Assembly: GCA_017601145.1 (NCBI GenBank)
Contig: JAFNIV010000008.1
Location: forward strand, 1-53,981
Length of the DNA: 53,981 bases
From: Candidatus Brockarchaeota archaeon
GTDB taxonomy: Archaea > Thermoproteota > EX4484-205 > JAAOZO01
Reading direction: 5' to 3'
The notes beneath the pieces are model-generated. The model ran no database searches and was not told where the DNA came from. It worked only from the letters and a program-made list of their open reading frames with translations. Shown here piece by piece: positions 2,764-20,250 of this stretch. Both the position numbers and the translations under genes were made by a program. Position 1 is the first letter of the stretch, and each line of letters opens with the position of its first letter.

Positions 2764-4581
2764 TTAATACATTCCCCAATAAGGTTCTTTCTTCCTTTTG
2801 ATGTTGTATATTTCTTCTAGTGCCTCTAATGTATCTTGACTTATGAATTGCTGGAGTTTATTTTTCAATAAGAAAGCATGTGAAGAGGGAATGTCTGAAT
2901 ATAATACTTCGCCTTCCTTTATAGATCTCCCAACAACAGCTTCTCTTACTGAAATTGATACTTCTTGCTTCACAGTAGCTTCTCTTACAGTTTCGTCTTT
3001 AAGTCTTATTGACTCTACTACTCCAACATGTTCTCCTTTTTCATTCATCAAATAAGCACCTTGTCTAAGTATGCCCTTCTCAACCCTTATACCAAATATT
3101 GCAGGTTTACTTCTCCTAAAAACGAATCCAGGAAGTACTAGAATCTTACATGGCATTTGAACTGAAGAAATTGTTGCTTCAAGAGATGATTTTTCAATTT
3201 GTTCTTTCCATGCAATGTAGTCCTCTATTATACTATATATTATTTCTCCAGAAAATATCTTTACGTCCATATCTCTAGCACCTATTTCTGCTTCATCTGT
3301 GATGTTTACATTGAATGCGAGAATTGCTCTTAGGTATCTTTTTTCTGATGAAGCAAGAGATGCTTGAATCACGTCTTTCTTAGAAACTGGCCCTATGCCT
3401 GCTACCCTTATTCCTATTTTTCTTGCCTGGAGCTCGCTTACAATTGCTTCTAAAGCACCTAATGTATCAGCCTTTATCACCAAGCCTTCAACCTCTTTTT
3501 CAAATAGAAACTGAGATGTTTCTTTAGAAAGCTGATCTAACAAGGGTTTCTCTTCTTCTCCACTAAACACTATAACTTCTGAACCTGCAAGGGCTTTCTC
3601 TAAGTTAGGTGCGCTTACTTTTACTCCAGCTGATGCTTTAACAACTTCCACATAGTTAAATTTATCCCTCGGATCTCTCATCTCGTCAAGGGGCTTCGGA
3701 ACCAGTAATGATCTGATTTTTGTTACTATTGGCCCATCAGCTCCTAGAAGGGCAATTTGGTTTCCAACTTTAAACTCTCCATCATATACTATAACATTTA
3801 GTGTTGTCCCTAAACCTGTTTCTTCTGTAACTTCTAAGACTACTCCTTTGCCTCGGTTTGAACTTATTCTCAACGAATCTAAGTTAAAAGTTTGGACCAT
3901 TCCAACTATGACTGCTATTAGCTCTGCTATTCCTTCTCCAGTCTTCGCGCTAACAGGAACTATTGGAACCCTCCCTTTGAAACTTTTCATATTGTAAAAA
4001 ATATCTGTATCTATTTGTAGGTTTGAAAGTTGACCCACTAGCTGGTAAATTTTTTCTTCAAGCGCTTTTCTAACAGAAGGTTCTTGAAACTTTAATGATT
4101 CAAGAAAAGAAAGCGTATTAACTTGCTTCCAACCTTTAACTAAGTCTATTTTGTTTGCTGCAACTACGAATGGAGTATTTCTTGACTTTAGTATATTAAC
4201 TGACTCTACAGTTTGAGGCATTACACCAGAAGTAACATCTATTACTAATATAGCAAAATCAGCAATAGAGCCACCTCTCTTTCTTAAGTTCATGAAGGCT
4301 TGATGACCTGGAGTATCTATAACTAGAATTCCTGGAATTTTTACTTTCGAAGCTACTTCAAAGCCTTTTATCTCTCTAACTATACTAATTAAAGTATCAA
4401 AGGGCAAATAAGAAGCTCCAACATGCTGGGTCTAGGACCTCTAAAAGGTTATCCCCCCTGCTTCTCTTTTTGCCACAACAGTTCCTCTTATCTTATCTAA
4501 TAACGAAGTCTTGCCGTGGTCTACTTAGCCCCTTTAAAAGGAATGGCCTAAGACCACGACAATAGGCTCTCTAATTTCCAA
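2764..4581 (-). CDS. infB: Translation initiation factor aIF5B, gene with two mini-introns
   Basis: aIF5B is the GTPase that promotes subunit joining. The long uninterrupted frame (from 4407) lacks the G1 motif, but the missing N-terminus lies just upstream, cut by two 18-nt insertions. Exons are 4581-4543, 4524-4450 and 4431-2764, joined to 1782 nt (593 residues). The joined N-terminus contains LGHVDHGKTSLL and GGITQHVGAS, then DTPGHQAF and NKIDL. Without removal, four in-frame stops would block translation. The TTG start follows GGTGAT by five bases, as at S6e. Domains II-IV follow, ending in the helical C-terminal region. The gene converges on aIF2-gamma. Seen: motifs and insertions. Inferred: RNA splicing. 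Confidence 0.93.
4432..4449 (-). other. 18-nt BHB mini-intron 2 in infB
   Basis: The sequence (minus strand) is ACCTTTTAGAGGTCCTAG, between the codons for Ile38 and Thr39 of the switch I motif GGITQH, with TAG twice in frame. The fold is a canonical BHB. Exon GGGA pairs with intron TCCT. The 5' bulge is TA|A and the 3' bulge AG|A. The inner hairpin is CCTT-TTA-GAGG and the outer helix GGG/CCC. Cutting after the second bulge base gives ATA ACC CAG (ITQ). Compared with intron 1, the hairpin keeps its pairing with one A to G change (A-U to G-U). Confidence 0.9.
4525..4542 (-). other. 18-nt BHB mini-intron 1 in infB
   Basis: The sequence (minus strand) is TCCTTTTAAAGGGGCTAA, lying between the codons for His13 and Val14 of GHVDHGKT, with TAA twice in frame. 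It folds as a bulge-helix-bulge. Exon GGCC pairs with intron GGCT. The 5' bulge is AT|T and the 3' bulge AA|G. The inner hairpin is CCTT-TTA-AAGG. The outer exon-exon helix is GTGGTC/GACCAC plus TA/TA, with one T bulged. Cutting after the second bulge base gives exactly GGC CAT GTA GAC (GHVD). Confidence 0.88.
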
Positions 4582-5069
4582 TTTTGATCACCAGCACATG
4601 AAAGACTTAAAACTTTAATAAATGTTAGCTTCTTTGAAGTCCCCCTTTACTTTTTGTAGAAGAATAGTGTTAAAAACAAAGATATTAATAGTCAAAAAAA
4701 GGCTTCTTACTTCTTTAAAGAACTTTTTACCATTGTGAGATTCACAGATTTTATCACTCCCCTTTCACTTCTATTATAGGTTCACAAAAAGCTTTTCAGG
4801 GATCCTTCATCCTAAGCATTTAAGGACTGCAATACGTCTTCTTCGTTTTCATACTTGCATGCCTTACATTTCTTATACCTATACTCATTCGATATTAGTT
4901 TACCACCACATATAGGTATATCTATGCAGAAGTTTATCATATTCCTAAAGTCCAGTCCACTAAGACTCTTTTAATATGTCGTTCGATTCGTAAGCAAATG
5001 AACTCCAAGGTCGACTTCCACAACAGAATATACAATAAACATCTATAAAAAATCCATTTATTCTAAAAC
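4582..5069. other. Gene-poor region between infB and L24e with a TnpB relic
   Basis: Many archaea carry a nucleoside diphosphate kinase gene between L24e and infB. None is visible here. The only coding trace is a TnpB zinc-finger remnant on the minus strand (4812-4960). The rest is AT-rich. A GGTGATC Shine-Dalgarno for infB sits at about 4586-4592. Confidence 0.5.
4812..4960 (-). pseudogene. TnpB zinc-finger remnant
   Basis: Read from 4960 downward, the frame gives ICGGKLISNEYRYKKCKAC followed by KYENEEDVLQSLNA and a stop, then DEGSLK in the same frame. This matches the layout of the TnpB zinc finger (CxxCG...C..C) and the following D-x-x-A/Q-x-x-N and GSL segments, with the first cysteine pair damaged. 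No N-terminal part or element ends were found. It is more decayed and of a different type from the IS607 relics here. Confidence 0.5.
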
Positions 5070-5246
5070 TTAAAACTGCTTCTTCACCCATTTTATTTTT
5101 CTTGGGTTTCTTTTTAGTTCAAGCGCATTCTTTTTGCACTTCGATGAACAAAACCAAAGCAGCGCACCATCATTTCTAACAAATAGTAGTCCCGTTCCAG
5201 GTTCTACCTGCCTACCACAGAAAGAACATTTTCTAAAGATTGGCAT
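5070..5246 (-). CDS. rpl24e: 50S ribosomal protein L24e
   Basis: The 58-residue zinc-ribbon protein begins [19 protein letters not shown], with the second cysteine pair in FCSSKCKKN and the ending [12 protein letters not shown]. These are the family hallmarks (four zinc ligands C7, C10, C33, C37) and the usual length. It is a large-subunit protein. It follows S28e by two bases and L7Ae before that, the standard archaeal L7Ae-S28e-L24e order. A GAGGTAAAG Shine-Dalgarno precedes the ATG. Confidence 0.95.
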
Positions 5247-5248
5247 CT

Positions 5249-5458
5249 TTACCTCACCCTTCTTGCTTCTCTTTCATCTTCTCTTAAGCAAAGAATCTCT
5301 CCAACCTTTACAGGTCCTCTTACGTTTCTAAGTATTACTCTCCCTTTATTCCTACCAGATAAAATTCTCACTCTAACTTGAGTAACTTCTCCCGTAGCAC
5401 CAGCTCTCCCTAGAACTTCTAAAACTTCTACATGGATGCATTCGTCTTCGATACTCAT
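5249..5458 (-). CDS. rps28e: 30S ribosomal protein S28e
   Basis: The 69-residue protein contains the S28e OB-fold signature [30 protein letters not shown] and the C-terminal [12 protein letters not shown]. It is full length. It is the middle gene of L7Ae-S28e-L24e, 16 bases after the L7Ae stop and two bases before L24e, so it is certainly co-transcribed with them. Confidence 0.95.
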
Positions 5459-5474
5459 TTCGTTTTTTCACTTT

Positions 5475-5849
5475 TTAACTCTGTTTCAGCTTGTTTATTT
5501 TTTCGATTAACTCATTCATTTGTTTCTCAGCTTGTCCAGGATTTTCGATGGCTGCACATGCCGCAGGTACTGATAATCCCACTGCGCTTCCTAGCATTTT
5601 CTTACTTGAAACTATTAAGTAGGGGACCTTTCTATCCCTACAGAGTAAAGGCACATGAAGAACTATTTCCACGGGGTCTACATCTTCAGCAATAACTACC
5701 AGCTTAGCTACCCCTCTTTCTATGGATTTTGTTGTCTCATTGGTGCCTCTTCTAACTTTACCTGTTTGGGCTGCTAGTTTCAGTAGTTCGAAAGCTTGAG
5801 ATTGTAATTCTTCTGGTACTTCATACTCTGCAGTCGTAATTTTTCCCAT
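5475..5849 (-). CDS. rpl7ae: 50S ribosomal protein L7Ae
   Basis: The 124-residue protein binds kink-turns in 23S rRNA, in C/D and H/ACA guide RNPs and in RNase P. The RNA-binding signature is GKVRRGTNETTKSIERGVAKLV, with VIAEDVDPVEIVLHVPLLC and the loop AVGLSVPAACAAI. The ATG at 5849 is chosen because AGGTGT lies just before it and residues before it (up to 5921) do not fit the family. It heads the L7Ae-S28e-L24e operon. Confidence 0.93.
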   Translation of the reverse strand: MGKITTAEYEVPEELQSQAFELLKLAAQTGKVRRGTNETTKSIERGVAKLVVIAEDVDPVEIVLHVPLLCRDRKVPYLIVSSKKMLGSAVGLSVPAACAAIENPGQAEKQMNELIEKINKLKQS

Positions 5850-6004
5850 TTTTCTACACCTCGACACCTTCAGCACTTTACTGAACAGCTTATTTAAACT
5901 TACCTTTTTGAAATTTGTCATCAGCTACTTAAAAAGGACGAAGTAGCAGCTCTATTTATTCAAAACACTATTGTTTATAAAAATTAAAACAAATTAAGAT
6001 TAAA

Positions 6005-6030
6005 AACTCAAAAAAAGAATTTTTTGAGTT
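6005..6030. terminator. Perfect 11-bp inverted repeat, possible terminator
   Basis: An 11-bp stem with an AGAA loop is followed on the plus strand by CTTT and preceded by an A-rich run. It lies upstream of L7Ae and downstream of TBP on the minus strand, so it could end the TBP transcript. Archaeal terminators are usually T-runs rather than hairpins, so the role is uncertain. Confidence 0.3.
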
Positions 6031-6216
6031 CTTTAGCAAAGAACTTCGTTGTACTGTAATATGAAAATTAAACTCTGGGAAATTTTATAAAAAAACCTAA
6101 AGTAACCCTAAGATGAGTTTTTGAAAGATTTGAAATGCTAAGAATAACGTAATTTAAAGTTCTAGCAAATAAGATTGGCGAAGGTTTCGGCAAGCATACT
6201 AGGCTGTGTGCTCGAA

Positions 6217-6253
6217 GAATCGAAGATCTCTCGGCTCAGCTGAGGAGAGTACC
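6217..6253 (+). repeat. IS200/IS605-like right-end hairpin A
   Basis: GAATCGAAGATCTCTCGGCTC forms a short stem, followed by AGCTGAGGAGAGTACC. The same arrangement, with nearly the same bases, occurs at 39241-39280 (minus) and more loosely at 29959-29990 (minus). Solitary copies with no tnpA or tnpB nearby suggest remnants of element ends, or of the 3' end of a TnpB guide RNA scaffold. Confidence 0.45.
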
Positions 6254-6401
6254 AAAGAATCAAGGTTGAAACTCCAAAATTGAAGTTATACATTCGATGA
6301 GTCATAAGTTCATGCTCATAGTTTATAATTATTTTTAGACGAATATAAAGTGGTTCCTTTTTGCAATTTGCGATGCGATTAGAGTTACTTTTATCTTTTG
6401 T

Positions 6402-6980
6402 TTAATAGAGCAAGTTCAGTTCAGAAAGTTGCTTGTATAAGTTTTCTGTTGCTTGTTTTACGTCAGCTTCTTTTCTTGCTCCAGTACAAACAAATTTTCC
6501 ACTTGCAAAGAGTAATAGGACAACTTTAGGTTCTTTCATTCTATATATGAGCCCTGGGAACTCTTCAGGCTCATACATTGTTCGTTCTAGTGTATAAGCA
6601 CATTTTTCAAGATCTATTCTTCCGGGTAAAGATCCAGAGGCAACTATGTTCTGTATAGTTATTTCAGGTTTGTTGTAGATTGATATCCCAACTCTTTTTA
6701 ATTCTTCTACAACTCTATATATTGCCCTTATTGCTTGTTTTTCTGATTTACTCCCAGTGCATACCATTTTTCCTGAGCTAAATATTAAAGTTGCTGTCTT
6801 TGGTTTTTTTAAACGAAAAACAAGACCTGGAAATTGCTCTGGTACGTATTCTATGACTGATTCGTCAAATGAATTGACGATGTCAAACAAATTAATTCTT
6901 TGATTTAAAACTGCAGAAGCAACGACATTTTCTATTTTGACAATGGGTTTCTTTTCTCCAATTGGTAATGATGGAATCAA
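6402..6980 (-). CDS. tbp: TATA-box-binding protein (TBP)
   Basis: TBP nucleates transcription pre-initiation complexes. The 192 residues form the two direct repeats of the saddle. Repeat 1 has NVVASAVLNQRINL and PGLVFRLKKPKTATLIFSSG. Repeat 2 has NIVASGSLPGRIDL and PGLIYRMKEPKVVLLLFASG. Each ends in KMVCTG or KFVCTG. The start is TTG at 6980, about 30-40 bases after a strong TATA box. There is no acidic C-terminal tail, in contrast to many crenarchaeal TBPs. It is transcribed alone. Confidence 0.95.
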   Translation of the reverse strand: MIPSLPIGEKKPIVKIENVVASAVLNQRINLFDIVNSFDESVIEYVPEQFPGLVFRLKKPKTATLIFSSGKMVCTGSKSEKQAIRAIYRVVEELKRVGISIYNKPEITIQNIVASGSLPGRIDLEKCAYTLERTMYEPEEFPGLIYRMKEPKVVLLLFASGKFVCTGARKEADVKQATENLYKQLSELNLLY

Positions 6981-7344
6981 TTTGATTTTATGTGCTGTAA
7001 CCCCCTTTATAAACTTTATATAAGGTTAAATTTAAGTCTTTTGTAAAAAAGAAACTGCTAATACCATAAACTTAAGGTCGTTTACGCCTTATCAAATTAC
7101 TTTAAAAAGAACTTTTAGACTATTATCTCAGAATCGAATGAGAATTAAGTCTTTAATTTGCTTATTTGATTGAAAACAACTATTTCTTCTAGAAGATTTT
7201 TATTGTAAAATATTTTTTTAAAGCAATTTGAACTTAATCTAAAATAAAAAACTTTGAAATAGTAGTCGTGAAGTAACTGTGAACTTTGGAATTTTTAATT
7301 AGTACATAAAAGTGACTTCAGAACAGTAATGATTTAACTTTGAT
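6981..7344. other. TBP promoter region and AT-rich spacer
   Basis: The only clear signal is the minus-strand TATA region at 7006-7024. The rest is very AT-rich up to the right end of the IS200/IS605-like element at 7345. Confidence 0.5.
7006..7024 (-). promoter_or_regulatory. TATA region of the tbp gene
   Basis: On the minus strand this reads TTATATAAAGTTTATAAAG, two overlapping TATA-like boxes 26-44 bases before the TTG start of TBP. The doubled box would suit a strong or self-regulated promoter, but that is inference. Confidence 0.6.
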
Positions 7345-7621
7345 GGCGGGAAGTCCCCCTGCGAAAGCTGGGGGATGAAAGCCGAAACCGAAAAGCTTAT
7401 ATTTTTCTCATTACATCTATCATTGTCTGCTTGGCTGGCAGACCTAGTAGGCATGGGACAGGCCGAAAGAGACGCCTGCTGAGGGCAAGACCTCCGTAAC
7501 CCACCTTCCACACGGGTTCCTCGAAACGGCCTCACTTGCCGAGGCCTCCGCTGTGGGTGAGTGGAGAGCGAGTCTGTCCGTGGAAGCAGGAAGCTCCTTG
7601 CGATAGCGAGGAGTAGTTCAC
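7345..7621 (-). mobile_element. Non-autonomous IS200/IS605-like element (copy 1)
   Basis: This 277-bp GC-rich block, with no transposase gene, has hairpins near both ends. The left end (at 7621, minus strand) has CTCCT...AGGAG around GCTATCGC, followed by CTTCCTGCTTC. The right end (at 7345) has CCCCC...GGGGG, followed by ACTTCCCGCC. This is the layout of IS200/IS605 ends. A second copy in the opposite orientation starts at 53835. They differ at only 2 of about 147 shared bases, so the family is or was recently mobile. The interior holds more complementary GC-rich blocks and may encode a structured RNA. It ends about 20 bases before the elp3 TATA box. Confidence 0.65.
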
Positions 7622-7640
7622 TTATCCTCTAAAGTATCAG

Positions 7641-7649
7641 ATTTAAATA
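7641..7649 (+). promoter_or_regulatory. TATA box of the elp3-gatE-gatD operon
   Basis: ATTTAAATA lies 28-36 bases before the TTG start of Elp3, which fits a leaderless transcript. The mobile element ends just upstream, so the upstream activator region has been replaced or separated. Confidence 0.5.
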
Positions 7650-7676
7650 CCCTTTGATTTTAGAAAACATGCAGAA

Positions 7677-9272
7677 TTGCAAGTATATTCTAACAGTTAT
7701 GAAAAAGCAATCAACGAAATAGCTTACGAACTAAAAAAACAATGGCCTATCGATAAAAATCATTTTGAAGAAATTAAGAAAAAAATCGCATCAAAATACA
7801 AACTAACAAGAGTTCCTTCAAATACAGAGGTGCTTCTAGCTTTAGAAGAGGAGTTTAAAGAAAAAGTAGCTCAAGAACTTGCAATAAAGAAAACAAGATC
7901 GGCTTCAGGTGTTGTTGTTGTTGCAGCAATGACTGCTCCATTACCATGTCCTCATAAAGAGGGGCCGTGCATTTATTGTCCAGGAGGACCAAAATTTGGA
8001 ACTCCGCAAAGTTACACTGGTTACGAGCCTGCTGCAATGAGAGCAATACAATACAACTTTGATCCTAAAAAACAAGTTGAAGCAAGACTAAAACAATTAG
8101 AGCAAATGGGACATAGTACAAAAAAAGTTGAACTTATAATCATGGGAGGAACTTTTCCCTCTTTTCCAGTCAAGTACCAAACGTTCTTCATAAAAGGATG
8201 TTTCGATGCAATTAACGGTTTGTCTTCTAGCTCTATAGAAGAAGCAATAAGTATGGCTGAGAAAGCAAAAAGAAGAAACGTTGCACTCACTATAGAGACG
8301 CGCCCAGATTATTGTAAAGAAGAACACGTTGATTTAATGCTTAGCTATGGTACTACAAGAGTTGAAATTGGAGTCCAATCGATTTACGAAGACGTTCTAA
8401 AATTTGTTAACAGAGGACACACAGTTAAGGAAAGTATAGACGCAATAAGAATTGCAAAGGATGCTGGATTAAAGGTGGCGATCCATATAATGCCAGGATT
8501 ACCATTATCAAGCTTTAATAGAGATATTGAAATGTTTAAAGTAATATTTGAAGATCAAGTATTTAAACCAGATATGATAAAAGTATATCCGACGTTAGTT
8601 GTAGAAGGAACAAAACTATACGATCTTTATAAAAAAGGAGAGTATAAGGCTTTAACTGACGAGGAAGCTATAGAAATAGTAGCGAAGGCACTCGAACTCT
8701 CTCCAAATTGGATTAGATTCATGAGAGTTCAAAGAGATATTCCAGCAACTAAGATAGTTGCAGGTCCAAAACACGGAAACTTAAGAGAACTTGCAATAAG
8801 AAGGCTCGTACAAAGCGGAAGAAACACAAAAGAAATTAGATTTAGAGAAGCAGGCTTAAGAAACTTCTTTGAAGCTACAGAAATTAAGCTAGTGAGAACT
8901 GACTATGAGGCATCACTAGGGCATGAAGTTTTTCTTGAATATGTAGACGCAAAAACTAATACTTTGTTTGGATACTTAAGACTTAGAATTCCTTCAGAAT
9001 TCGCACATAGGCCAGAAATTAAGTCTAGCAAGGCCGCCATAGTAAGAGAACTGAAAGTTGTTGGAAGGGCAACTCCATTTGGAAAAGTTTATAGCAAATC
9101 TTGGCAACATAGAGGACTTGGAGCTTCTTTATTGAAAGAAGCTGAAAGAATAGCTCTAGAAGATTTTGATGCTCATAAAGTACTTGTTATATCGGCAATA
9201 GGAACGAGAGAATATTATTATAAGTTAGGCTATGAAAAGGAAGGTGTATACGTATCGAGGAAGATAAAATGA
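7677..9272 (+). CDS. elp3: Elp3-like tRNA uridine(34) acetyltransferase
   Basis: This 531-residue radical-SAM/GNAT protein makes carboxymethyl-type modifications on wobble uridine. It has an N-terminal RNA-binding segment. The radical-SAM cysteines are C91, C98 and C101 (CPHKEGPCIYC), followed by GGTFPSFP and the SAM-binding segment ETRPDYC. The C-terminal acetyltransferase has RGLGASLLKEAERIA and YYYKLGYEKEG. The TTG at 7677 is chosen because it lies a leaderless distance from the TATA box. Its stop overlaps the GatE start (ATGA), so modification and charging enzymes for tRNA are co-transcribed. Confidence 0.93.
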   Translation: MQVYSNSYEKAINEIAYELKKQWPIDKNHFEEIKKKIASKYKLTRVPSNTEVLLALEEEFKEKVAQELAIKKTRSASGVVVVAAMTAPLPCPHKEGPCIYCPGGPKFGTPQSYTGYEPAAMRAIQYNFDPKKQVEARLKQLEQMGHSTKKVELIIMGGTFPSFPVKYQTFFIKGCFDAINGLSSSSIEEAISMAEKAKRRNVALTIETRPDYCKEEHVDLMLSYGTTRVEIGVQSIYEDVLKFVNRGHTVKESIDAIRIAKDAGLKVAIHIMPGLPLSSFNRDIEMFKVIFEDQVFKPDMIKVYPTLVVEGTKLYDLYKKGEYKALTDEEAIEIVAKALELSPNWIRFMRVQRDIPATKIVAGPKHGNLRELAIRRLVQSGRNTKEIRFREAGLRNFFEATEIKLVRTDYEASLGHEVFLEYVDAKTNTLFGYLRLRIPSEFAHRPEIKSSKAAIVRELKVVGRATPFGKVYSKSWQHRGLGASLLKEAERIALEDFDAHKVLVISAIGTREYYYKLGYEKEGVYVSRKIK

Positions 9273-11149
9273 GCACTAAAGAACCAGAAGTAAAAATTGG
9301 CTTTGAGTGGCATCAGAGACTAAAAACGCATAAGCTATTTTGTGATTGCCCTTCCATGCTTGGATTAAAGCCAGAATCAAGAGTCATGAGGCATATACGA
9401 CTTTCATATAGTGAGCTTGGTGAGCAAGATCCTGCTGCAATTCTTGAAGCTCAGAGAGCGAGAAAGTTTTACTATGATTTTAATTCAATGAACTCCTGCC
9501 TTGTTGAATTGGATGAAGCACCTCCACATGAAATTAATGAAGAAGCACTAAGAATTGCATTCAAGATAGCTTTAATGTTCAGAATGCAGGTACTTGATGA
9601 GATAAGAGTTATGAGAAAAGTTGTTCTAGATGGAAGTAACACAACAGGATTTCAAAGAACAGCTTTAGTTGCAATAGGTACAAAAGAATCTTTTCTTGAA
9701 ACAAAAGAAGGCAATGTTAGATTCAAAACTCTTTGTTTAGAAGAAGAATCAGCATTTATTGAAGAAACGGATAAAGAAGAAGCAACTTATAGACTGGATA
9801 GATTGGGTATTCCGTTGATAGAACTAGCAACAGAACCAGATATTCATTCTGCAAAACAAGCTATCGAAGTGGCAGAGAAAGTTGGGTTAATGCTTAGATT
9901 AACTGGAGATGTTCAAAGAGGATTAGGTTCCATTAGGCAAGATTTGAACATAAGTATAGCAGGAGGAAGTAGACAAGAAATCAAGGGAGTGCAAGAACTT
10001 GAACTAATTCCAAATATTGTGTACTATGAAATAGAAAGACAAAGAAACTTGATTAAGATAAGGGATGAGCTAAATTTAAGGAAAGTAAAAAAAATTGAAT
10101 TTAATTACTTTGAGGTTACTAATGCTCTTAAAAAATCAAACTCAAAATTAGTTAAGGAAGCTATTGCAAGAGGAGAAAACGCCTACCTTCTACCACTCCC
10201 TGGTTTAGAAGGATTGCTTGGAATGCAAATTCAACCAAAAAGAAGGTTTGGTACGGAACTGGCAGATTATGCTAGAGTTTGGGGAGGAGTAAGGGGCATC
10301 ATTCACTCAGATGAACTTCCAGGCTATGGAATTACAGCAGAAGATGTTTCCTTGATTAGGAATGAAAATAACTTAAGTAAAGATTCTGCATTCGTAATTG
10401 TTTTTTCAGACATAAAAAAAGCAGAACTAGCATTAAGGGCAGTTCTCAATAGAGTAAACATGGCTTTAGAAGGAGTTCCCACAGAAACTAGAAAAGCTAA
10501 CCCAGATGGAACAACCTCTTACCTAAGGCCACTTCCCGGAGCAGCTAGAATGTACCCAGAAACTGATCTATTGCCAATAGTTGTTAATAAAAGTACCATT
10601 GAAGAACTTAAAATGCAGTTACCACCAACTCCAGAAGAAGTTATGAAACAAATAATGGAATACGGAGTTAGTGAACAAATGGCAAGACAACTAGTAAGGT
10701 CTCCTGATCTTCAAACTTTTTATAAGTTAGTGAAAGAGAACGTAGATCCCGTTTTTGTTTCTTCTGTACTACTAAATACGATTCCAAGTTTAAGGAGGAA
10801 TGGGATAAAAGTAGATGAAATAAGCGAAAGCGATTTGCAAACTTTAATTTTAGCTTTCTCCAGAGAAAAGCTACCAAAAGAAGCAATTGAAGAAGCACTA
10901 ATGCTACTATCAGAAGGAGAAGAAGTTAGTTCCGTGGTAAATAAAATAAAGAATAAAGTGATAGGGGAAGAGGAAGTAAGAAAAACTATCCAACAAGTTG
11001 TTCTGGAAAAGAAAGAACTAATAAATCAAAGAGGAAAAGATGCAATAAAGCCTCTTATGGGTTTAGTAATGGAACGTTTTAGAGGAAAAGTACAAGGAAG
11101 CTTAGTTTATGAATTGCTTAAAGAAGAAATAGAAAAGGTGATGAAGTAA
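9269..11149 (+). CDS. gatE: Glutamyl-tRNA(Gln) amidotransferase subunit E
   Basis: GatE recognises misacylated Glu-tRNA(Gln) and activates the glutamate for amidation. The 626-residue protein has the GatB/E cradle motifs (KLFCDCPS, GSNTTGFQRTALVA, TEPDI and RQDLNISI), an AspRS-like insertion (about 270-410), and a C-terminal YqeY-like tail (about 500-626) that docks tRNA. The first motif reads FEWHQRL, where LEIHQQL is usual, a small deviation. It overlaps Elp3 by four bases and its stop overlaps the GatD ATG. Confidence 0.95.
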   Translation: MSTKEPEVKIGFEWHQRLKTHKLFCDCPSMLGLKPESRVMRHIRLSYSELGEQDPAAILEAQRARKFYYDFNSMNSCLVELDEAPPHEINEEALRIAFKIALMFRMQVLDEIRVMRKVVLDGSNTTGFQRTALVAIGTKESFLETKEGNVRFKTLCLEEESAFIEETDKEEATYRLDRLGIPLIELATEPDIHSAKQAIEVAEKVGLMLRLTGDVQRGLGSIRQDLNISIAGGSRQEIKGVQELELIPNIVYYEIERQRNLIKIRDELNLRKVKKIEFNYFEVTNALKKSNSKLVKEAIARGENAYLLPLPGLEGLLGMQIQPKRRFGTELADYARVWGGVRGIIHSDELPGYGITAEDVSLIRNENNLSKDSAFVIVFSDIKKAELALRAVLNRVNMALEGVPTETRKANPDGTTSYLRPLPGAARMYPETDLLPIVVNKSTIEELKMQLPPTPEEVMKQIMEYGVSEQMARQLVRSPDLQTFYKLVKENVDPVFVSSVLLNTIPSLRRNGIKVDEISESDLQTLILAFSREKLPKEAIEEALMLLSEGEEVSSVVNKIKNKVIGEEEVRKTIQQVVLEKKELINQRGKDAIKPLMGLVMERFRGKVQGSLVYELLKEEIEKVMK

Positions 11150-12498: not shown

Positions 12499-12821
12499 TT
12501 TTGAAAAAAAGAGATTCCACAAGAGAATACATGACTTTAATATAAGACTTGCATAGGCTTTAAATTAATAAGTTACCATTACGATAAGAGAAACAGACTT
12601 ATCATTTAGAACAGAAGGACTGCTTAACTTAAAAATAAATACATTAAAGCTTTCATGCTGAATAACCGCAAGTTATCTAAATCTTTTTTATTTGAAATTT
12701 TCATACTAAGAATGAAATACTTTATGTTTCATTTATTAGTTGTAAAAATATACTTTAGGATATCAAAATTTTTAAAGTCAGCGTCTTCTTGATACTCTGT
12801 TAAATTAAAGCTTACAATCAA
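12499..12821. other. AT-rich intergenic region, no gene seen
   Basis: The region runs from the gatD stop to the right end of the IS607 relic at 12822. Neither coding frames, notable repeats nor RNA-like GC-rich segments were found. Confidence 0.5.
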
Positions 12822-12943
12822 GGGTTCTGAGTTAAGTAGTTAGCCCTTCCCTCTCGATTATTTCATCGAGGGCTCTTTGGGGGAACCCTTCTCCCCGCAT
12901 CTGAAGGTTCAATACTGCTACAACGTCTCTATCTAAGATTATG

Positions 12944-13291
12944 TTACACATTTCTGAAGCTGAAAAGAGTACTCTTGATGTAGACTGTTCTTTTAGTTAT
13001 CTTAGGCTTACTTTCAGCTCTCCCCATATTATGTAATGTTATCCAGCTCTTAACAAGCCCTATGACAGAGTTTATTGCTGAATCAACATAATGCTTTGAA
13101 AACCTCCAGTTTTTTAGTAACTCATCTCTAAGCTTCCTCCTATCCTCTCTACTGATACTTAGATGGGCTTTATTGGAAAACCTTACATGGGCGAAAATGT
13201 GCTCCAAAGCTCTTTGCTTAACTTGAAAGTATTCTTCGATTAAATCCTTTGGAGCTTCTACTGGGATTCTATAGCTCTTAACTGCTTCCAT
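12944..13291 (-). pseudogene. TnpB N-terminal fragment (IS607 family)
   Basis: A 115-codon open frame covers the N-terminal part of TnpB (KSYRIPVEAPKDLIEEYF, then RFSKHYVDSAINSVIGLVKSW and GRAESKPKITKRTVYIK). It ends at TLFSFRNV, where the nuclease core has been lost. The downstream tail (LDRDVVAVLNLQMRGEGFPQ) is in another frame. Confidence 0.75.
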
Positions 13292-13309
13292 AATCTTTCA
13301 ACCTCACTC

Positions 13310-13439
13310 TTAGTGTTGGAAGCCTAATAGCCTTAATAATCCCCTTCTTTTGTCATTTTCAAAGAGTCTTAACTGAGATGTTAAATATCTTTGTAACATC
13401 CTTTGGTCTAAGCAGTTCTTCGTAATCTTCAGACATCAT
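13310..13439 (-). pseudogene. IS607 TnpA (serine resolvase) N-terminal relic
   Basis: The frame from ATG 13439 gives SEDYEELLRPKDVTKIFNIS and VKTL, then loses frame at about 13360. It resumes as TKEGIIKAIRLPTLRVRLKD in another frame. This is the DNA-binding N-terminus of IS607-family TnpA. The serine-recombinase catalytic domain is absent. Confidence 0.65.
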
Positions 13440-13748
13440 TAAAGTAATCAACCTTTATTTAAACCTACCTGTCTCGAAACTGCTGACAACGGCAACAAGT
13501 GCAACTAGATTACTTCGAAAGACAAAACTAACGTTCGTTTTTACACACTCTAGAACTGAAAACTTTTGAAATCGAACTAACGCTAAAAACTAAATATCGA
13601 AAAGACTTAACTCATTTTTCAGTTTAGCCAAAGACGAATTAGTTAGCCTACAAAGAAAAGGGATGAAGTTTCTTAAAAAGTCAAGTAAAAGAGCCAAATA
13701 GCCAGTAGTAAAGTTAAAATAATTACTACTTTAGTACAAAAACAAAGA

Positions 13749-15914
13749 TTGTTACCGTACACTGTTTTAGAACCAGAAGAAAACTACAACAATGATTTTG
13801 CAAGAAATTACAGAATTCTTCTTAAGAACCCAATTTCAGAATGGTCAACTAGTGTTTTTTCGGTGAAAGTAAATATATTTGAGAAAGAATCATTTTTTAC
13901 TCCGAATAGAGACTATCCTGTCGAAGGTTTTCTTTGCGATCTGCATGGCAGTACGTGGAAAATTCTTGATTCCTTTGGCATTTCTTTAAGAGACGAAAAT
14001 CTTAAAGAAGTTGAAATTACCCCAACTAAAGTGTACTACAACATTTTCTCTGCAAAGTATTTCTACAAAATAAAAGAGTATGGAGAAATTTCTATAGATT
14101 TTTCTTTATGCAATACTAGGTTACAAAATGTTGCAGCTTTAAGGATAAAAGTGGCCCAAGAGAGAATTCCTCCAAAATTTAAATATTTCTTTTACTTTCT
14201 TCTAAAACTTAGACCAATAAAAGGGAACTACGTTCCATGTAGTGTTTTTTCAAAACACCCTGAGGGCGTTCTTTGCTCAAGTGACAGAGTAGAGGTAAAA
14301 GTTGAAAGTAATCAAAACATGTACTCAGAAATGAGTAAAGTTAGGTCTTTAGTGTGGAATTATAAACAAGGTTATGGTTTCAGATATGTAGAAAACAATA
14401 GAGTATTGTTTAAAAGTGAACAAGATGAAATATACGTGATCGGACCACTCTATGCTAGTGTAACTGAAGAACCTATCGAGCTTAAGGTTATAGTTAGTGA
14501 AACAAACTACTCAAAAGAGGAAGTACTGAAAGAACTGTTTTGTTTATCACCTATAAGTTATTCTCATGTGAACCAAATATTGTCCTCTCTTCCATTTGAT
14601 GGAATAAGTGACGAAAACATAAGAACAGCTATGAAAGGAAGACTAGTTGCACTGTTAACTTTTGGAAAAAGAACCGCACTTGACTCAGAAGAGTATCTTG
14701 TGCCTGAAGCAGGGGCATGGTGGTTTAGAGAAATATGGCTTAGAGATCTTTACGAAGGACTTTTTTGGAACATTAATACTTACTTGACTACAGGTCTTTA
14801 CAATTTTATTGTTAACCAAGTGAATTTTGGGTTTTCAGTGATGAATGAATATGGCATGTTGCCAAACTTTGTTATATTTGAAGGAGGAAGAAAAGTATTG
14901 AATTTTGAATCAATTGATGCCACTTTATTGTTTCATAAGCTAGTTTTGAGATTAGGACAAATAACTAATGATAAAGCTTTACTAGAAAGAGCATTCAAAG
15001 CTTTTAGAAAGTTTGTCGATGCTACCATAGAAGGTAAAATAAAGAATATCACGATAAACAATAGTTTAATCCTTTCACCACCTTACTATAGCTGGATTGA
15101 TAGTAGATATGACATAAAAATTGGTGACAAAATAATATATAAGTTCCCTAGTAGAGTTTCAGCAGACATGTTGAAAGAACTTCTTTTTAAATATCAAGAC
15201 GAGAGACATATTTATGAATTACTTAATTCCCCTTCATTCTTTTTACCAGAGATTCAAGCTACTTTTTGTCTCATTTTAAATGAATATAAAAGAATAGATA
15301 AAATTACGAAAAATGCTAACAACATATCAAAAATAGCTGAAGAATCACTTGAGAGATACCTTGAAATTTTAAAAAATAGTAAGACCAACATTCCTCCAAA
15401 TATAATGTACATAAGTCACAAAAATGAGTACCTAAAGGATGAAACTATATCTTCTGCTTCTTTCTCTTCAGTTTCAACTCTAAAATCTTACTTAGATGAC
15501 GACTTTTTGAAAAAAGCTCTTGAAACTGCACAAAAAGAACTTATCGTATACAGAAAACTCATGAAACTTGGCTCAGGAATTTATCCCTTTGGTTTAATTA
15601 CACAGAAAAGAGAACACTCACCTTACTTAGGAGATGAACAGTATCATGGCTATGTAGTTTGGCCGAGGGAAACAGTCTACGTCGTAGACCTCTTAGAAAA
15701 ACTTAACTTAACAAGAGACGTTGACAAGATACTTCTTAATAACTTAGATGCATCAATTTCTGAAAGGATTCCATTCTACCTTTCAGAACTATTTGAAGTT
15801 CAAAAACTTAAAAAAATGCCAGAAAATGAATTAGAAAATCCAATACCGATGAAAAATCCAGCACAGTACTGGTCGATGTGGTTTGATCCATATTTAAAAT
15901 GGCTTTTAGTGTGA
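13749..15914 (+). CDS. Amylo-alpha-1,6-glucosidase/debranching-type glycoside hydrolase
   Basis: The 721-residue protein resembles archaeal glycogen-debranching and amylo-1,6-glucosidase enzymes. It has an N-terminal beta-sandwich (about 1-270) followed by an (alpha/alpha)6 barrel. The stretch GAWWFREIWLRDLYEGLFWN (about 319-338) matches the W-x-R-D catalytic-acid segment, and GYVVWPRETVYVVDLL (about 629-644) resembles the second active-site loop. No signal peptide is evident, so it acts in the cytoplasm, plausibly on glycogen made by the synthase at 25.7 kb. The TTG start has no clear Shine-Dalgarno. It stands alone between two IS607 relics. The exact substrate is uncertain. Confidence 0.75.
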   Translation: MLPYTVLEPEENYNNDFARNYRILLKNPISEWSTSVFSVKVNIFEKESFFTPNRDYPVEGFLCDLHGSTWKILDSFGISLRDENLKEVEITPTKVYYNIFSAKYFYKIKEYGEISIDFSLCNTRLQNVAALRIKVAQERIPPKFKYFFYFLLKLRPIKGNYVPCSVFSKHPEGVLCSSDRVEVKVESNQNMYSEMSKVRSLVWNYKQGYGFRYVENNRVLFKSEQDEIYVIGPLYASVTEEPIELKVIVSETNYSKEEVLKELFCLSPISYSHVNQILSSLPFDGISDENIRTAMKGRLVALLTFGKRTALDSEEYLVPEAGAWWFREIWLRDLYEGLFWNINTYLTTGLYNFIVNQVNFGFSVMNEYGMLPNFVIFEGGRKVLNFESIDATLLFHKLVLRLGQITNDKALLERAFKAFRKFVDATIEGKIKNITINNSLILSPPYYSWIDSRYDIKIGDKIIYKFPSRVSADMLKELLFKYQDERHIYELLNSPSFFLPEIQATFCLILNEYKRIDKITKNANNISKIAEESLERYLEILKNSKTNIPPNIMYISHKNEYLKDETISSASFSSVSTLKSYLDDDFLKKALETAQKELIVYRKLMKLGSGIYPFGLITQKREHSPYLGDEQYHGYVVWPRETVYVVDLLEKLNLTRDVDKILLNNLDASISERIPFYLSELFEVQKLKKMPENELENPIPMKNPAQYWSMWFDPYLKWLLV

Positions 15915-15956
15915 AGTTACTCTCTCTGTGTTTAAGAACAAGAAAATCAAATTCAG

Positions 15957-16118
15957 TTAAATGGCTTTTACCATTTTTACTGTTTCTTTTCTTACTTTCT
16001 CTAAAACCTTATACCCACAATATGGGCACCTTATTTCTCTGGGGTTCATCATTTCAGGAGTGAATATACTCTTACAGGCTAAACACCTATAAACAATTGA
16101 AGGTTTTCCTTCTTCCAT
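15957..16118 (-). CDS. rpoP: DNA-directed RNA polymerase subunit P (Rpb12-like)
   Basis: This 53-residue zinc-ribbon protein has two CxxC pairs (YRCLACKS and IRCPYCGYKVLEK) and ends VKMVKAI, the RpoP/Rpb12 pattern. It is a small essential subunit of archaeal RNA polymerase that bridges the Rpo3/Rpo10/Rpo11 platform. An AAGGGTGAA Shine-Dalgarno lies directly before ATG 16118. It converges on the glycoside hydrolase and lies next to an IS607 relic. In many archaea it follows L37Ae, but no L37Ae is present here. Confidence 0.92.
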   Translation of the reverse strand: MEEGKPSIVYRCLACKSIFTPEMMNPREIRCPYCGYKVLEKVRKETVKMVKAI

Positions 16119-16232
16119 TTCACCCTTGCTGGCGTGAGTAGTAGTATAAATTTGTTTCGCCTGTATGTCTTTAACTTGAAGTTAAATAGTTTTACTTGCC
16201 TCGAATACATTCTTCAAAACTTGTCTTTGCCC

Positions 16233-16928
16233 CTTCAGCAGTTTCAAAATAGATATGCTTAAATATTGGTAGATATAGAAGAATATTAATGTCAGAAAAG
16301 CTCTATAAAATCAAAGAGGCGAAGAAGCTTCTTGGAGTCAAAAAGATTGTTAGTTAAAGCATACTCTATACCTCATAATCTTGAGGTGAATGAGCTTATA
16401 GAGGATTACATGAGAATCTATCTTGGAAGATTTATGGAAGAACATTGAATGGAAAAGGAATAGGAAGAGGCTTATACCATTTCTGAGGAAAGATAAGGAT
16501 TTTAGGAAAAAGCTTAGAGACAAGAATCTTAGAGGATGGGTTTACTCCAAGCATTACGTGGACTCTGCGATAAAACAGGCTTATTCTATGCTTGAATCGT
16601 GGAGGAAGAGATACCTTCATGGACGGGCTAAAAGAAGACCTGAGTTGAAGAGGAAATTTGTTAGAGTTAAGGAAACCCTCTACAGCTACAGACGGTGTGC
16701 AACAAAGATCTAAGGGGAGAGGTCTTCAAATGCCCAAAATGCGGACTTGTAATAGATAGGCAAAAGAATGCATCAATAAACATTTGGAAAACATTCCTTA
16801 GGATGTGGGGAGTTATGGGTTTCCCCCGAAAGGAGCAAAGCTCAATGAGTCCTCCAATGAACCCTGAGGAGGAAAAGAGCGTTGAGGCTCAAGGACTAAG
16901 TATGGATTCCATACTTAGTTCAGAACCC
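16233..16928 (+). mobile_element. IS607-type relic (copy c)
   Basis: The left end is CTTCAGCAGTTTCAAAATAG, as in copy a. The element holds a truncated TnpA (ATG 16289: SEKLYKIKEAKKLLGVKKIV, then stop), the frameshifted N-terminal half of TnpB (about 16345-16700), then the zinc finger and tail (16695-16937). It ends near CAGAACCC (16921-16928). The TnpB catalytic core is missing between TLYSYR and the zinc finger. Confidence 0.75.
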
Positions 16929-16937
16929 ATAATATAA
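16345..16937 (+). pseudogene. TnpB relic with catalytic core deleted
   Basis: Three frames carry successive parts. First is LVKAYSIPHNLEVNELIEDY (about 16345-16430). Second is LRGWVYSKHYVDSAIKQAYS, from an open frame at 16423-16713. Third is the zinc finger VFKCPKCGLVIDRQKNASIN with a tail ending SSEPII (16695-16937). The parts align end to end with the copy at 12944-13291, so frameshifts and one large deletion killed the gene. Confidence 0.75.
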
Positions 16938-17058
16938 AGCAATACTGTTATGAAACTTTTAGTACTTAGTTAAGACTTTTAATCTTTATATGTTTCTATT
17001 TGTTTTTGGAACACCATATTTCTTAATTATTTTACGAAACTATTCTTTGTTACAACTT

Positions 17059-17808
17059 TTAGGAATAAATATTTTGTTTTCTTAACAGTTCTAGGAACTC
17101 TTCTGCATTTTTTATCATATTTATTACGTTAAACATTACATAAACTTCTTTGGAATCCTGTTCTAAAACAATTTTAAGTAGTTTTTCTAAGTCCTTACTT
17201 GTATACTCATACTTATAGTTGTATCTTCTCCTAAGCCCATGAAGTCTAAAGTAACAAACCTCTTGTTCAACGACAGGCTTATCCCAAAAAGGATCTACTA
17301 CATGAATTAGGTTGTACTTGTCTATGATTTGTTTTAGTACTACCTTTTCATTAAGCCATTCTCCCCTTGGTTCCCAACCGAGCTTAAATCCATACCGTTC
17401 AATGCTTGAAAAAAAGTTTTCTAAGTTGCTTCTGTTTCTCATGCTAGGTTCAAAGCTTGGAGGAGACTGAAAAATGATCATTTCTGCTCCTAGAGCCTTA
17501 GCAAAATTAGCAGTAGTCTTCCAAGCTTCAAACACTTCTTTAGTTGGCATAAAATTTCCGTAGTTTGTCAGATTTATTTTATGCTTTCCTTTATACCGTT
17601 TCCAAGTTGGGCTACTAGAAGAATGCGTAATACCTTGCCAAGCTTTCAAAGTATAAACAAAGTCCTCAGGTGCTTCTTCTCTCCATTTCTTTGCTGTTTT
17701 CTCAGATGGAACGTTATAAAATGTTTCTTGAATTTCAACCGTATTAAATTTCTTAAAATATGTATTCTTTGAAATTGCAAACCCGCATGTACCTACAAGA
17801 ATTCTCAT
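17059..17808 (-). CDS. DUF72 family TIM-barrel protein (YecE-like)
   Basis: The 249-residue protein starts MRILVGTCGFAISKNTYFKK and has the DUF72 hallmarks: a G-T/W-x-x-x-F-Y strand near the N-terminus (VEIQETFYNVPSEKTAKKW), a LIHVVDPF strand and a late YFRLHG motif. The family has a TIM-barrel fold and no settled biochemical role. It follows purB with one base between stop and start, so it shares that operon. This does not prove a purine role. Confidence 0.85.
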   Translation of the reverse strand: MRILVGTCGFAISKNTYFKKFNTVEIQETFYNVPSEKTAKKWREEAPEDFVYTLKAWQGITHSSSSPTWKRYKGKHKINLTNYGNFMPTKEVFEAWKTTANFAKALGAEMIIFQSPPSFEPSMRNRSNLENFFSSIERYGFKLGWEPRGEWLNEKVVLKQIIDKYNLIHVVDPFWDKPVVEQEVCYFRLHGLRRRYNYKYEYTSKDLEKLLKIVLEQDSKEVYVMFNVINMIKNAEEFLELLRKQNIYS

Positions 17809-17809
17809 C

Positions 17810-19177
17810 TTAATTCACCAAACTTTTACCTACAATTTTTTCGCTTTCATCTATGACCCTTAAGATTATTTTTTCAACAACTTTAAAGAAAGTTTCTTGA
17901 TCAAAGAGATTTTTTATATCTTCTTCCTTAATAAGGTTAGATATATCTTCGTGTTGTTTAGCTGTTTCAAAGAAGTGTGTTTTACTTTCTTCAACTTTAT
18001 CAGAAATAGCAGAAACTATGCTATGAGCCCTCTTTCTTGAAACTCCTCTTTTTATAAGTTCTGTTAATAAGAGTTCAGAATAGATCTTTCCATTTGTAAG
18101 CTCTAAGTTTTTTATCATATTCTCTTTGTTTATTTCAAGATCTTCAATAACCTTTTGAATAGTAACTAGTTGTTCAGATAACAGTCCAAAGACTTCTGGA
18201 AACACTAGCCTTTCAGTTGAACTATTACTTAGATCTCTCTCGTGCCATAAAACTATGTTTTCAAGCATTGAAAGGCTTATCCCTCTTAAAACTCGTGCTA
18301 TTCCAGAAACCTTTTCACAATTTATTGGATTTCTTTTATGAGGCATAGCAGAAGAACCAACTTGTTCAGCTACAAATTTTTCTCTAACTTCATTTATTTC
18401 AGTTCTCTGAAGGTTTCTAATCTCTGTTGAAATTTTATCTAAGATAGTTGAGAGTATCACAAACTCAACAATAAGCCTAGCGTATAGGTCTCTACTTAAA
18501 ATTTGGGTAGCTATAGCAGGTTGTTTTAGCCCAAGTTTATTCAACGCGATTCTTTCAACGTCTATTCCCTTTTCACCCATAATTAAGTAAGTTCCTACCG
18601 CACCGCTTATTTTACCATATCGCATATCTTCTAGAGCTTCCTTTATTTTGGCATAAGATCTAGAAACTTCCCATGTCCATACCGAAAACTTTAACCCAAA
18701 CACATATGGTTCTGCATGAATTCCATGAGTTCTTGCAACACAAATTGTTTTTTTATTTTCTAGCGCCTTTTTAGCAAGAATCTTTATCAGATTTAATAAA
18801 CGTTTAAGAATGATTGCTCCTGCTTTTTGAATTATAATTGCATTAGAAGTATCTATGATATCATTAGAAGTCAAACCAAAGTGCACGAACCTACCGTAAT
18901 CTCCACAATTTTTCTCAATGTAGCTAACAAGTGCAGCAACTTCATGCTTTGTTTCTGATTCAAGTCTTTTTATTGCTTCTACATCAACATCCTTTTTTGC
19001 AAATTGACTTATTACTTCTGCAGCTTCCTTCGGAATTAAACCCAGATCGCCTTGAACTTCCGCAACAGTCTTTTCAACCTCAATCATTGTTTTATATTTT
19101 TCTCTTTCAGTAAAGAATTCAAGTATTGCTGGATCACCATACCTGTAGTCTATTGGATGAACAGGTTCTCGCGGCAT
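17810..19177 (-). CDS. purB: Adenylosuccinate lyase
   Basis: The enzyme cleaves SAICAR and adenylosuccinate in purine synthesis. The 455-residue protein starts MPREPVHPIDYRYGDPA and contains the fumarase/aspartase-family signature GSSAMPHKRNPINCE (about 279-293), the catalytic-His region ARTHGIHAEPY, and SNDIIDTSNA. It is full length. It is divergent from purA, with only 62 bases between the starts. The two enzymes that make AMP from IMP therefore share a promoter region, and purA carries a mini-intron. Confidence 0.96.
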   Translation of the reverse strand: MPREPVHPIDYRYGDPAILEFFTEREKYKTMIEVEKTVAEVQGDLGLIPKEAAEVISQFAKKDVDVEAIKRLESETKHEVAALVSYIEKNCGDYGRFVHFGLTSNDIIDTSNAIIIQKAGAIILKRLLNLIKILAKKALENKKTICVARTHGIHAEPYVFGLKFSVWTWEVSRSYAKIKEALEDMRYGKISGAVGTYLIMGEKGIDVERIALNKLGLKQPAIATQILSRDLYARLIVEFVILSTILDKISTEIRNLQRTEINEVREKFVAEQVGSSAMPHKRNPINCEKVSGIARVLRGISLSMLENIVLWHERDLSNSSTERLVFPEVFGLLSEQLVTIQKVIEDLEINKENMIKNLELTNGKIYSELLLTELIKRGVSRKRAHSIVSAISDKVEESKTHFFETAKQHEDISNLIKEEDIKNLFDQETFFKVVEKIILRVIDESEKIVGKSLVN

Positions 19178-19239
19178 TTCTCCTCACTTCTATAAGAAGA
19201 GACTTAAATAATAGATTTTTGCTATGTTGAAAGCAGAAA
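19178..19239. promoter_or_regulatory. Shared divergent purB/purA promoter region
   Basis: The 62 bases between the two starts must hold both promoters. On the plus strand GACTTAAATAATAG (19201-19214) is the best TATA candidate for purA, about 30 bases before ATG 19240. CTATTATTTAAGTC on the minus strand serves purB. Confidence 0.45.
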
Positions 19240-20250
19240 ATGACGCTAAAAGTAATCGTGTCTGGCTTTTGGGGCGATGAGGGAAAGCTTTAGCCCCTAG
19301 AAGGCAAAATTTCAGCCTACCTCGCACTGAGGGATCGCCCCACAATTGCTGTAAGGACCGGTTCCATAAATGCAGGGCATACTGTAGTTATTAGTGGCAA
19401 AACATACAAGCTAAGACTAACGCCTAGTGCATTTGTCTGCGAAAACACAAAGTTAATGATAGCACCTGGCGCAAATATTTCTCTTGAAGTGTTTTTTAAA
19501 GAGATAGAAGACTTGGGGCTAAGAAACAGGTTAAGAGTTGACTATAATACGTCGATAATAGAAGAAAAACATGTAAAACAAGACCAAGAAGATAAATTCC
19601 TTAAGGAAGTTATTGGAAGTACTGGTAGTGGAGTCGGCCCAGCAATAGCAGATAGAGTCCTTAGAAAAGCTAAGTTAGCTAAAGAGATTCCAGAGTTAAG
19701 AAACTTCTTAGCAGATGTTTCTGAGGAAGTTAACAATGCGCTGGATGAGGGTAAAATTGTTCACCTAGAAGGTTCTCAAGGTTTTTACTTAAGCTTGTAT
19801 CATGGTACATACCCTTATGTTACTGGGAGAGATACTACCTCAGCCGCAGTACTTAGTGAAGTTGGTATAGGGCCTAAGAAGGTAGATGAAATTATTCTAG
19901 TATTAAAGGGTTATGTAACAAGAGTTGGAAATGGACCACTACCAGGAGAACTTCCACCTGAAGAAATTGAAAGACGTGGATGGGTCGAAAGAGGGACTGT
20001 AACTGGTAGAATTAGAAGAGCAGCACCATTTAACTTTGAACTAGCTGCAAAAAGCGCAAAAGTTAATAGTGCTACAAGCATAGCTATAACAAAGATAGAT
20101 CGTTTGTTTCCTGAATGTTCTCATGTAAGACAAAAAGAAGTTTTAAGTGAGAGATGTATTGAGTTTATACGTCAAGTGGAAAAAGCTACTAATGTACCTG
20201 TAAAATTTGTAGGAACTGGAGAAGATATTTTAGACATCGTAGAACTTTAG
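19240..20250 (+). CDS. purA: Adenylosuccinate synthetase, gene with one mini-intron
   Basis: PurA forms adenylosuccinate from IMP, aspartate and GTP. The exons are 19240-19285 and 19301-20250, joined to 996 nt (331 residues). The joined N-terminus MTLKVIVSGFWGDEGKGKI contains the GDEGKGK GTP-binding loop, followed by GSINAGHTVV. Later come EGSQGFYLSLYHGTYPYVT, and TAVTGRIRR-like TVTGRIRRA. Unspliced, the frame meets TAG four bases into the insertion. The shorter open frame beginning at 19456 lacks the whole active-site loop, so it cannot be the true protein. The length suits the compact archaeal PurA. It is divergent from purB. Confidence 0.93.
19286..19300 (+). other. 15-nt BHB mini-intron in purA
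   Basis: AGCTTTAGCCCCTAG splits the codon for Lys16 in GDEGKGK (phase 1). Exon AGGG (19280-19283) pairs with intron CCCT (19295-19298). The bulges are AA|A and AG|A. The inner hairpin is GC(T)-TT-(A)GC. The outer helix is weak (TTTTG/CAAAA across an internal loop), a relaxed BHB. Cutting after the second bulge base gives GGA AAA GGC (GKG). One- and two-base shifts of the intron would also give GKG, but only this register matches the BHB rule used by the infB introns. Confidence 0.83.

Follow-up and report, generated by a model that had tools for sequence, protein, structure and literature searches.

Short inserts in purA and translation GTPase genes of Thermoproteota are predicted to be bulge-helix-bulge pre-mRNA introns

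Three short inserts in infB and purA

The window analysed here is the whole 53,981-nt contig JAFNIV010000008.1 (contig C54) of a Candidatus Brockarchaeota archaeon (GCA_017601145.1), a 1.62-Mb archaeal assembly of 55 contigs that is 86.5% complete; of the named relatives met among the loci, 'Thaumarchaeota archaeon isolate SJ3.Bin70' is the closest (PurA identity 91%). Two genes of the window are interrupted near their 5' ends by short inserts, infB (aIF5B) by two of 18 nt and purA by one of 15 nt. When all three inserts are excised, the conserved motifs and the conserved protein are recovered. An initial annotation, made from the letters alone, had described three minimal introns here, and the inserts lie where it placed them, 4432 and 19300 being the exact outer ends of infB intron B and of the purA intron. 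It had also read stops in each, and these are indeed present, in frame, in all three (two TAG and two TAA in the infB inserts, one TAG in the purA insert). The parts of the two genes are as follows, a slash marking the insertion point within a protein motif.

2764..4431, minus strand: infB exon 3, open as far as the stop codon
4432..4449, minus strand: infB intron B (predicted), 18 nt; A, hairpin CCTTTTAGAGG, TCCT, AG; two in-frame TAG; site GGI(T)/QH; 4-bp helix of TCCT with GGGA of the exon (4452-4455)
4450..4524, minus strand: infB exon 2; AGACCACG (4515-4522) pairs with CGTGGTCT of exon 1 (4551-4558) as an outer exon-exon helix
4525..4542, minus strand: infB intron A (predicted), 18 nt; T, hairpin CCTTTTAAAGG, GGCT, AA; two in-frame TAA; site LGH/VDHGKT
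4543..4581, minus strand: infB (aIF5B) exon 1, by reading 13 codons that begin with TTG and end in LGH; GGCC (4545-4548) forms the 4-bp helix with intron A, and 4543-4544 are the exon side of the 5' bulge
19240..19285, plus strand: purA exon 1, ATG to GDEGK; AGGG (19280-19283) pairs with intron CCCT
19286..19300, plus strand: purA intron (predicted), 15 nt; A, hairpin GCTTTAGC, CCCT, AG; one in-frame TAG; site GDEGK/GK
19301..20250, plus strand: purA exon 2, open as far as the stop codon

The three inserts fit a single layout, as had been proposed: one base, a hairpin (11 nt in infB A, 11 nt in infB B and 8 nt in purA), four bases complementary to exon bases that end 2 nt upstream of the cut, and a terminal AA or AG. 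With the predicted cuts marked by ^, the junctions read GGCC AT^T CCTTTTAAAGG GGCT AA^GTAGAC for infB intron A, GGGA TA^A CCTTTTAGAGG TCCT AG^ACCCAG for infB intron B, and AGGG AA^A GCTTTAGC CCCT AG^AAGGCA for the purA intron.

Structure and covariation of 64 introns

From the window and its relatives we parsed 64 distinct introns of 15-39 nt, at nine sites in four genes (purA, infB, EF-2 and EF-1A). Left out of the counts were four chance matches of the search pattern (L181, L182, L206 and L207), one EF-2 insert (L268, genome G003) and three duplicate loci (L183, L185 and L186). All 64 have the core of a bulge-helix-bulge (BHB) substrate, a 4-bp helix between two 3-nt bulges in which cutting behind the second base of each bulge gives back the reading frame. 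The helix joins four exon bases ending 2 nt before the 5' cut to four intron bases ending 2 nt before the 3' cut; every intron forms all four pairs, 40 of them with Watson-Crick pairs throughout, while exon and intron partners permuted among themselves reach a mean of 2.23 pairs of four and a maximum of 2.75 (5000 permutations). Likewise, the outer four pairs of the hairpin are formed at a rate of 0.965, against 0.454 when the arms are permuted. An A opens the intron in 56 of 64 and is its penultimate base in 62 of 64.

When both cuts were shifted jointly through nine registers, register 0 kept the helix in 58 of 58 introns, and shifts of 1-4 bases kept it in at most 3 of 58. Within a site, both strands of the helix change together: carriers have GGGA/TCCY or GCCA/TGGY at infB site B, TCCG/CGGA or TTCG/CGAR at EF-2 site E1, and GCCC/GGGT or GCGC/GCGT at EF-2 site E2. 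An outer exon-exon helix is strong at infB sites A and B and mixed in EF-2; at infB site B it is more stable in carriers than in intron-free relatives (-16.6 vs -7.0 kcal/mol; 11 vs 10 sequences, p 2e-4).

Distribution among relatives

The inserts recur at identical codons in relatives, with differing letters and lengths, and other relatives are intron-free at the same places. At the purA codon an insert of 15-30 nt is carried by 11 genomes (61 searched, 58 with a match), and it is found in 7 of the best 80 of 265 named PurA loci, namely those of SJ3.Bin70, two Brockarchaeota, ex4484_205, two Nezhaarchaeota and Methanomethylicota WYZ-LMO11. A pattern search for the purA intron in 398 genomes of the phylum gave 29 matches, 25 in purA and 4 by chance, with the window's genome as an additional carrier; the 25 are a lower bound, because the pattern has a minimum gap and skipped the window's own 15-nt intron.

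For the translation factors, the queries were the first 130-176 residues; EF-2 was examined as a paralogue of infB, and EF-1A was likewise chosen for its kinship to infB. Introns at aIF5B site A or B occur in 12 of the 60 genomes with a match, and in 5 of 5 genomes chosen as carriers of such introns or kin of one. Site A is also occupied in G001 (17 nt), G042 (31 nt, one base shifted), G085 and G193, and site B in 12 further genomes. EF-2 is interrupted in 18 of 118 genomes with a match, at five sites: IRN/IGIIAH (n=10), AH/VDHGK (n=5), and GK/TT, TTTS/DSLL and EQ/LRQM (n=1 each). Of the 89 genomes in which EF-1A was matched, 88 have it uninterrupted (G003 being inspected by eye), and the remaining one, G085, has an intron at VD/HGK; this genome has introns in infB, EF-2 and EF-1A. 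The window genome's own EF-2 and EF-1A are uninterrupted.

No site lies beyond about codon 65; the introns found are near the 5' ends of genes for GTP users (PurA, aIF5B, EF-2 and EF-1A). Beyond the intron the frame stays open for 554-620 aa in infB and for 683-752 aa in 16 of the 18 EF-2 carriers, the two shorter EF-2 frames being those of G017 (530 aa, contig end) and G053 (659 aa, run of N). With 64 introns, their covariation and the intron-free relatives, the comparison supports the earlier proposal of mRNA introns of a tRNA-splicing type, near the 5' ends and in the GTP-binding motifs of core genes. Should the inserts be spliced, many lineages of Thermoproteota would have mRNA introns.

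Number of introns per genome

The initial annotation had suggested that the genome may have dozens of such introns and had proposed a genome-wide search for the layout to find them. Such a scan, with a frame filter, of 454 kb of the window's genome returned 648 matches, against 677 for a decoy pairing rule; the layout alone is thus uninformative and predicts nothing, and the evidence is comparative. The top candidates of the scan (L108 and L115, for example) turned out on reading to be ordinary coding sequence or adjacent genes.

We rely on a survey of interruptions, which aligned stretches from three genomes with reference proteins of relatives, using up to 15 matches per region. It covered 598 regions: 281 in the window's genome (258 with an examinable start), 150 in G025 (143) and 167 in G038 (158); the 281 regions are those with a usable homologue in the 47.6% of the window's assembly that was surveyed. 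Convincing interruptions were seen in infB and purA of the window's genome, EF-2 and infB of G025, and infB and purA of G038. The window and four stretches of G025 and G038 had been included for these known genes as positive controls, and all six were found. The other 591 regions (infB of G038 takes up two) gave no convincing interruption, in a survey that tests genes with a reference homologue and that first exons under about 10 residues may escape. Several flags were rejected: L294 is a match of 34.8% identity near a gene end, L101 and L103 are weak alignments close to gene ends, and L112, L116, L211 and L215 look antisense or poorly aligned and disappear under the gap criterion. The survey points to a handful of introns per genome and does not support dozens, and it shows a bias to GTP-using genes, although EF-2 and EF-1A had been chosen as kin of infB; in the 281 regions of the window's genome only infB and purA are interrupted.

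Gain, loss and origin

A PurA tree of 63 rows, 22 of them with the intron, requires at least five changes, three of which are forced by well supported branches; it took 22 of the 29 intron rows, leaving out L028, L034, L191, L193, L201, L203 and L209. Such changes would fit either gains and losses or one gain followed by several losses. The idea that the introns are spreading is borne out in part: a target motif is shared across paralogues, and presence and absence in close relatives imply gain or loss, in either direction. The related idea that they stand at a size limit holds for the window's genome (15-18 nt) but not for the relatives, where they reach 39 nt.

The shared motif is GH or AH/VDHGK in infB and EF-2, and the EF-1A site lies two codons further on. 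In G042, besides the shifted intron at infB site A (L170), there is a 29-nt intron at EF-2 GK/TT (L265), a pair that suggests independent insertion at almost the same motif. Separately, the infB P-loop of G026 and G054 (L171, L172 and L272) holds an intein-like insertion at GK/T, ending in HN before TSLLDK, a few codons from site A. As read from the sequence, this insertion has the gene, and almost the site, in common with the introns; inteins, unlike the present introns, act by protein splicing and are much longer.

The intein-like insert, together with H/VDHGK sites in different paralogues, favours targeted insertion, but no long element was found. The introns could be remnants of homing elements, brought to conserved P-loop targets through DNA homing or through reverse splicing and shortened since then, an origin compatible with their being BHB introns today. 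It would explain why infB and EF-2 share a target and EF-1A is hit two codons on, with G085 carrying introns in all three, and it would agree with the GK/T positions of the intein-like insert and of the G042 EF-2 intron. Yet the three G085 introns are unlike each other in sequence (by eye, unaligned), the inspected sites showed no longer version and no long endonuclease-coding intron, and none of the 64, at 15-39 nt, encodes the homing endonuclease of a mobile intron. We hold this origin to be possible but somewhat unlikely.

Splicing machinery and a possible mechanism

Two PF01974 splicing endonuclease genes are present in the window's genome, on contigs C11 and C55, as is one for the tRNA ligase RtcB (E 5e-176). 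The C11 protein appears to have the catalytic Tyr, His and Lys, and the C55 protein appears to lack the His and Lys. A two-gene set fits an (alpha-beta)2 enzyme, the form of endonuclease that PMC2738675, in the part available, links to mRNA introns. A candidate for cbf5 in this genome (a PF01509 match with no stop) was searched for a GTLDP-like motif and none was found, so that it may be another pseudouridine synthase.

In the transcript, the intron hairpin and the 4-bp exon-intron helix, joined at the infB sites by the exon-exon helix, would form the BHB. The two-subunit endonuclease would cut each 3-nt bulge past its second base, RtcB would join the exons, and the 15-39-nt intron would be discarded. 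Were the intron retained, the ribosome would run into a stop codon or out of frame about 13-65 codons into the gene. The 5' position possibly reflects a BHB cut needed before ribosomes cover the site, conserved P-loop DNA as an insertion target, or a near-start stop serving as a switch.

The last of these could be extended to a regulon, in which removable 5' stops in EF-2, EF-1A, aIF5B and PurA would tie translation and adenylate synthesis to the endonuclease and to GTP-activated RtcB, so that low GTP or competing RNA repair would leave these mRNAs cut and unjoined. We consider this doubtful; Archease gives RtcB dual GTP/ATP use according to the portion of PMC3973293 consulted, which weakens a strict GTP switch.

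Elsewhere in the window, ARAGORN found no tRNA gene, and an Rfam search for structured RNA gave no match at the gathering score, with a single chance-level match in 6050-7700. The segment 7340-7640, upstream of an open reading frame at 7677, is relatively GC-rich and looks non-coding, with no Rfam match above threshold.

Weighing the alternatives

From position, structure, covariation, the restored conserved frame and the presence of the enzyme genes, all of which can be read directly, we infer splicing itself, the enzymes responsible and any cause of the bias to GTP genes. On this comparative evidence we predict, with a probability of about 0.93, that these are short archaeal pre-mRNA introns of the BHB kind, as known from cbf5.

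Several observations weigh against this prediction. The named carriers are metagenome bins, and the others are mostly assemblies in many contigs. The cut register was fixed per site from the first examples, which makes the sites, not the introns, the independent choices; the covariation is unaffected by how the register was set. In purA the outer helix is not stronger in carriers than in intron-free sequences (-6.15 vs -5.63 kcal/mol; 26 vs 68 sequences, p 0.18), so that purA is without one part of a full canonical BHB, and its substrate may be of the relaxed sort accepted by some archaeal endonucleases (PMC2738675 and PMC12397907, each in part). The hairpin of L162, an intron at infB site B, is poor, with 1 contiguous pair. 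Finally, the insert of about 30 nt at AH/VDHGK in EF-2 of G003 (L268) departs from the BHB layout; a run of N lies downstream of it, and the insert could be a relaxed substrate or the product of faulty assembly.

Programmed translational bypassing, in which the ribosome hops across an insert, is known from phage T4 gene 60 and the yeast mitochondrial byp elements. It would account for short inserts in coding genes, some with a hairpin beside a stop, and for junctions that can slide by at least one base (49 of 58); however, it predicts neither a 4-bp exon-insert helix at a fixed 2-nt distance in 64 of 64 nor compensatory changes within it. Matched take-off and landing codons are not regular, and the 9 of 58 junctions with a single possible position have no repeated take-off and landing triplet. 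We judge bypassing very improbable.

Stop-codon reassignment or read-through, with the insert translated as extra P-loop residues, has in its favour that the three window inserts are all multiples of three. Among the 64 introns, however, every remainder modulo 3 occurs (0, 1 and 2 in 24, 25 and 15), so that read-through cannot serve; TAG, TAA and TGA are all present, and the added residues would fall inside a nucleotide-binding loop. This explanation is rated even lower.

Pseudogenes or assembly errors, the least credible reading and one we strongly disfavour, could be invoked for in-frame stops in metagenome bins and for the G003 EF-2 beside its run of N, but the interrupted genes are core genes needed by the cell, and the flanks of the inserts are conserved. 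Separate assemblies and genera have their inserts at one and the same codon, with letters that covary, and the remaining frame is open except at contig ends and runs of N.

Relation to known systems and significance

According to the part of PMC2738675 (2009) available, cbf5 was the sole archaeal protein gene whose splicing had been confirmed, and introns elsewhere were putative predictions. In full-text literature, which leaves out bioRxiv preprints and most subscription papers, we found, judging by titles and the opening lines of abstracts, no report of introns in purA, infB or EF-2 of archaea, and no confirmed archaeal mRNA intron later than cbf5; the sections seen of PMC7714728, PMC12397907 and PMC13149111 name no further one. 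The cbf5 pre-mRNA intron occurs in Sulfolobales and Desulfurococcales (Watanabe 2002, as cited; Yokobori 2009, PMC2738675, partial text). As far as these describe it, the present inserts resemble it in having a BHB-like structure in a protein gene, a predicted cut between the second and third bulge base, a hetero-oligomeric endonuclease, and gain and loss in relatives. They differ in their genes (purA, infB, EF-2 and EF-1A) and lineages, in occurring twice in one gene, in being as short as 15 nt, and in that splicing is here a prediction. With the BHB introns of archaeal tRNA and rRNA they share the BHB core and, by prediction, the enzymes; the host, unlike there, is an mRNA, whose exons have no tRNA fold to hold them. 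Very short inserts in coding genes are also described from rudivirus SIRV1, as putative introns of 12 bp (Peng 2004, quoted in the available part of PMC2738675); set beside ours by description only, these are viral and putative.

If the inserts are spliced, archaeal mRNAs carry introns as often as twice in one gene, and down to 15 nt, within those parts of core translation GTPases that bind the nucleotide, and gene finders without an intron model would truncate or miss such genes. The system offers a natural setting for testing how introns are gained and lost and whether short ones can act as switches, and its confirmation would widen archaeal mRNA splicing beyond cbf5.

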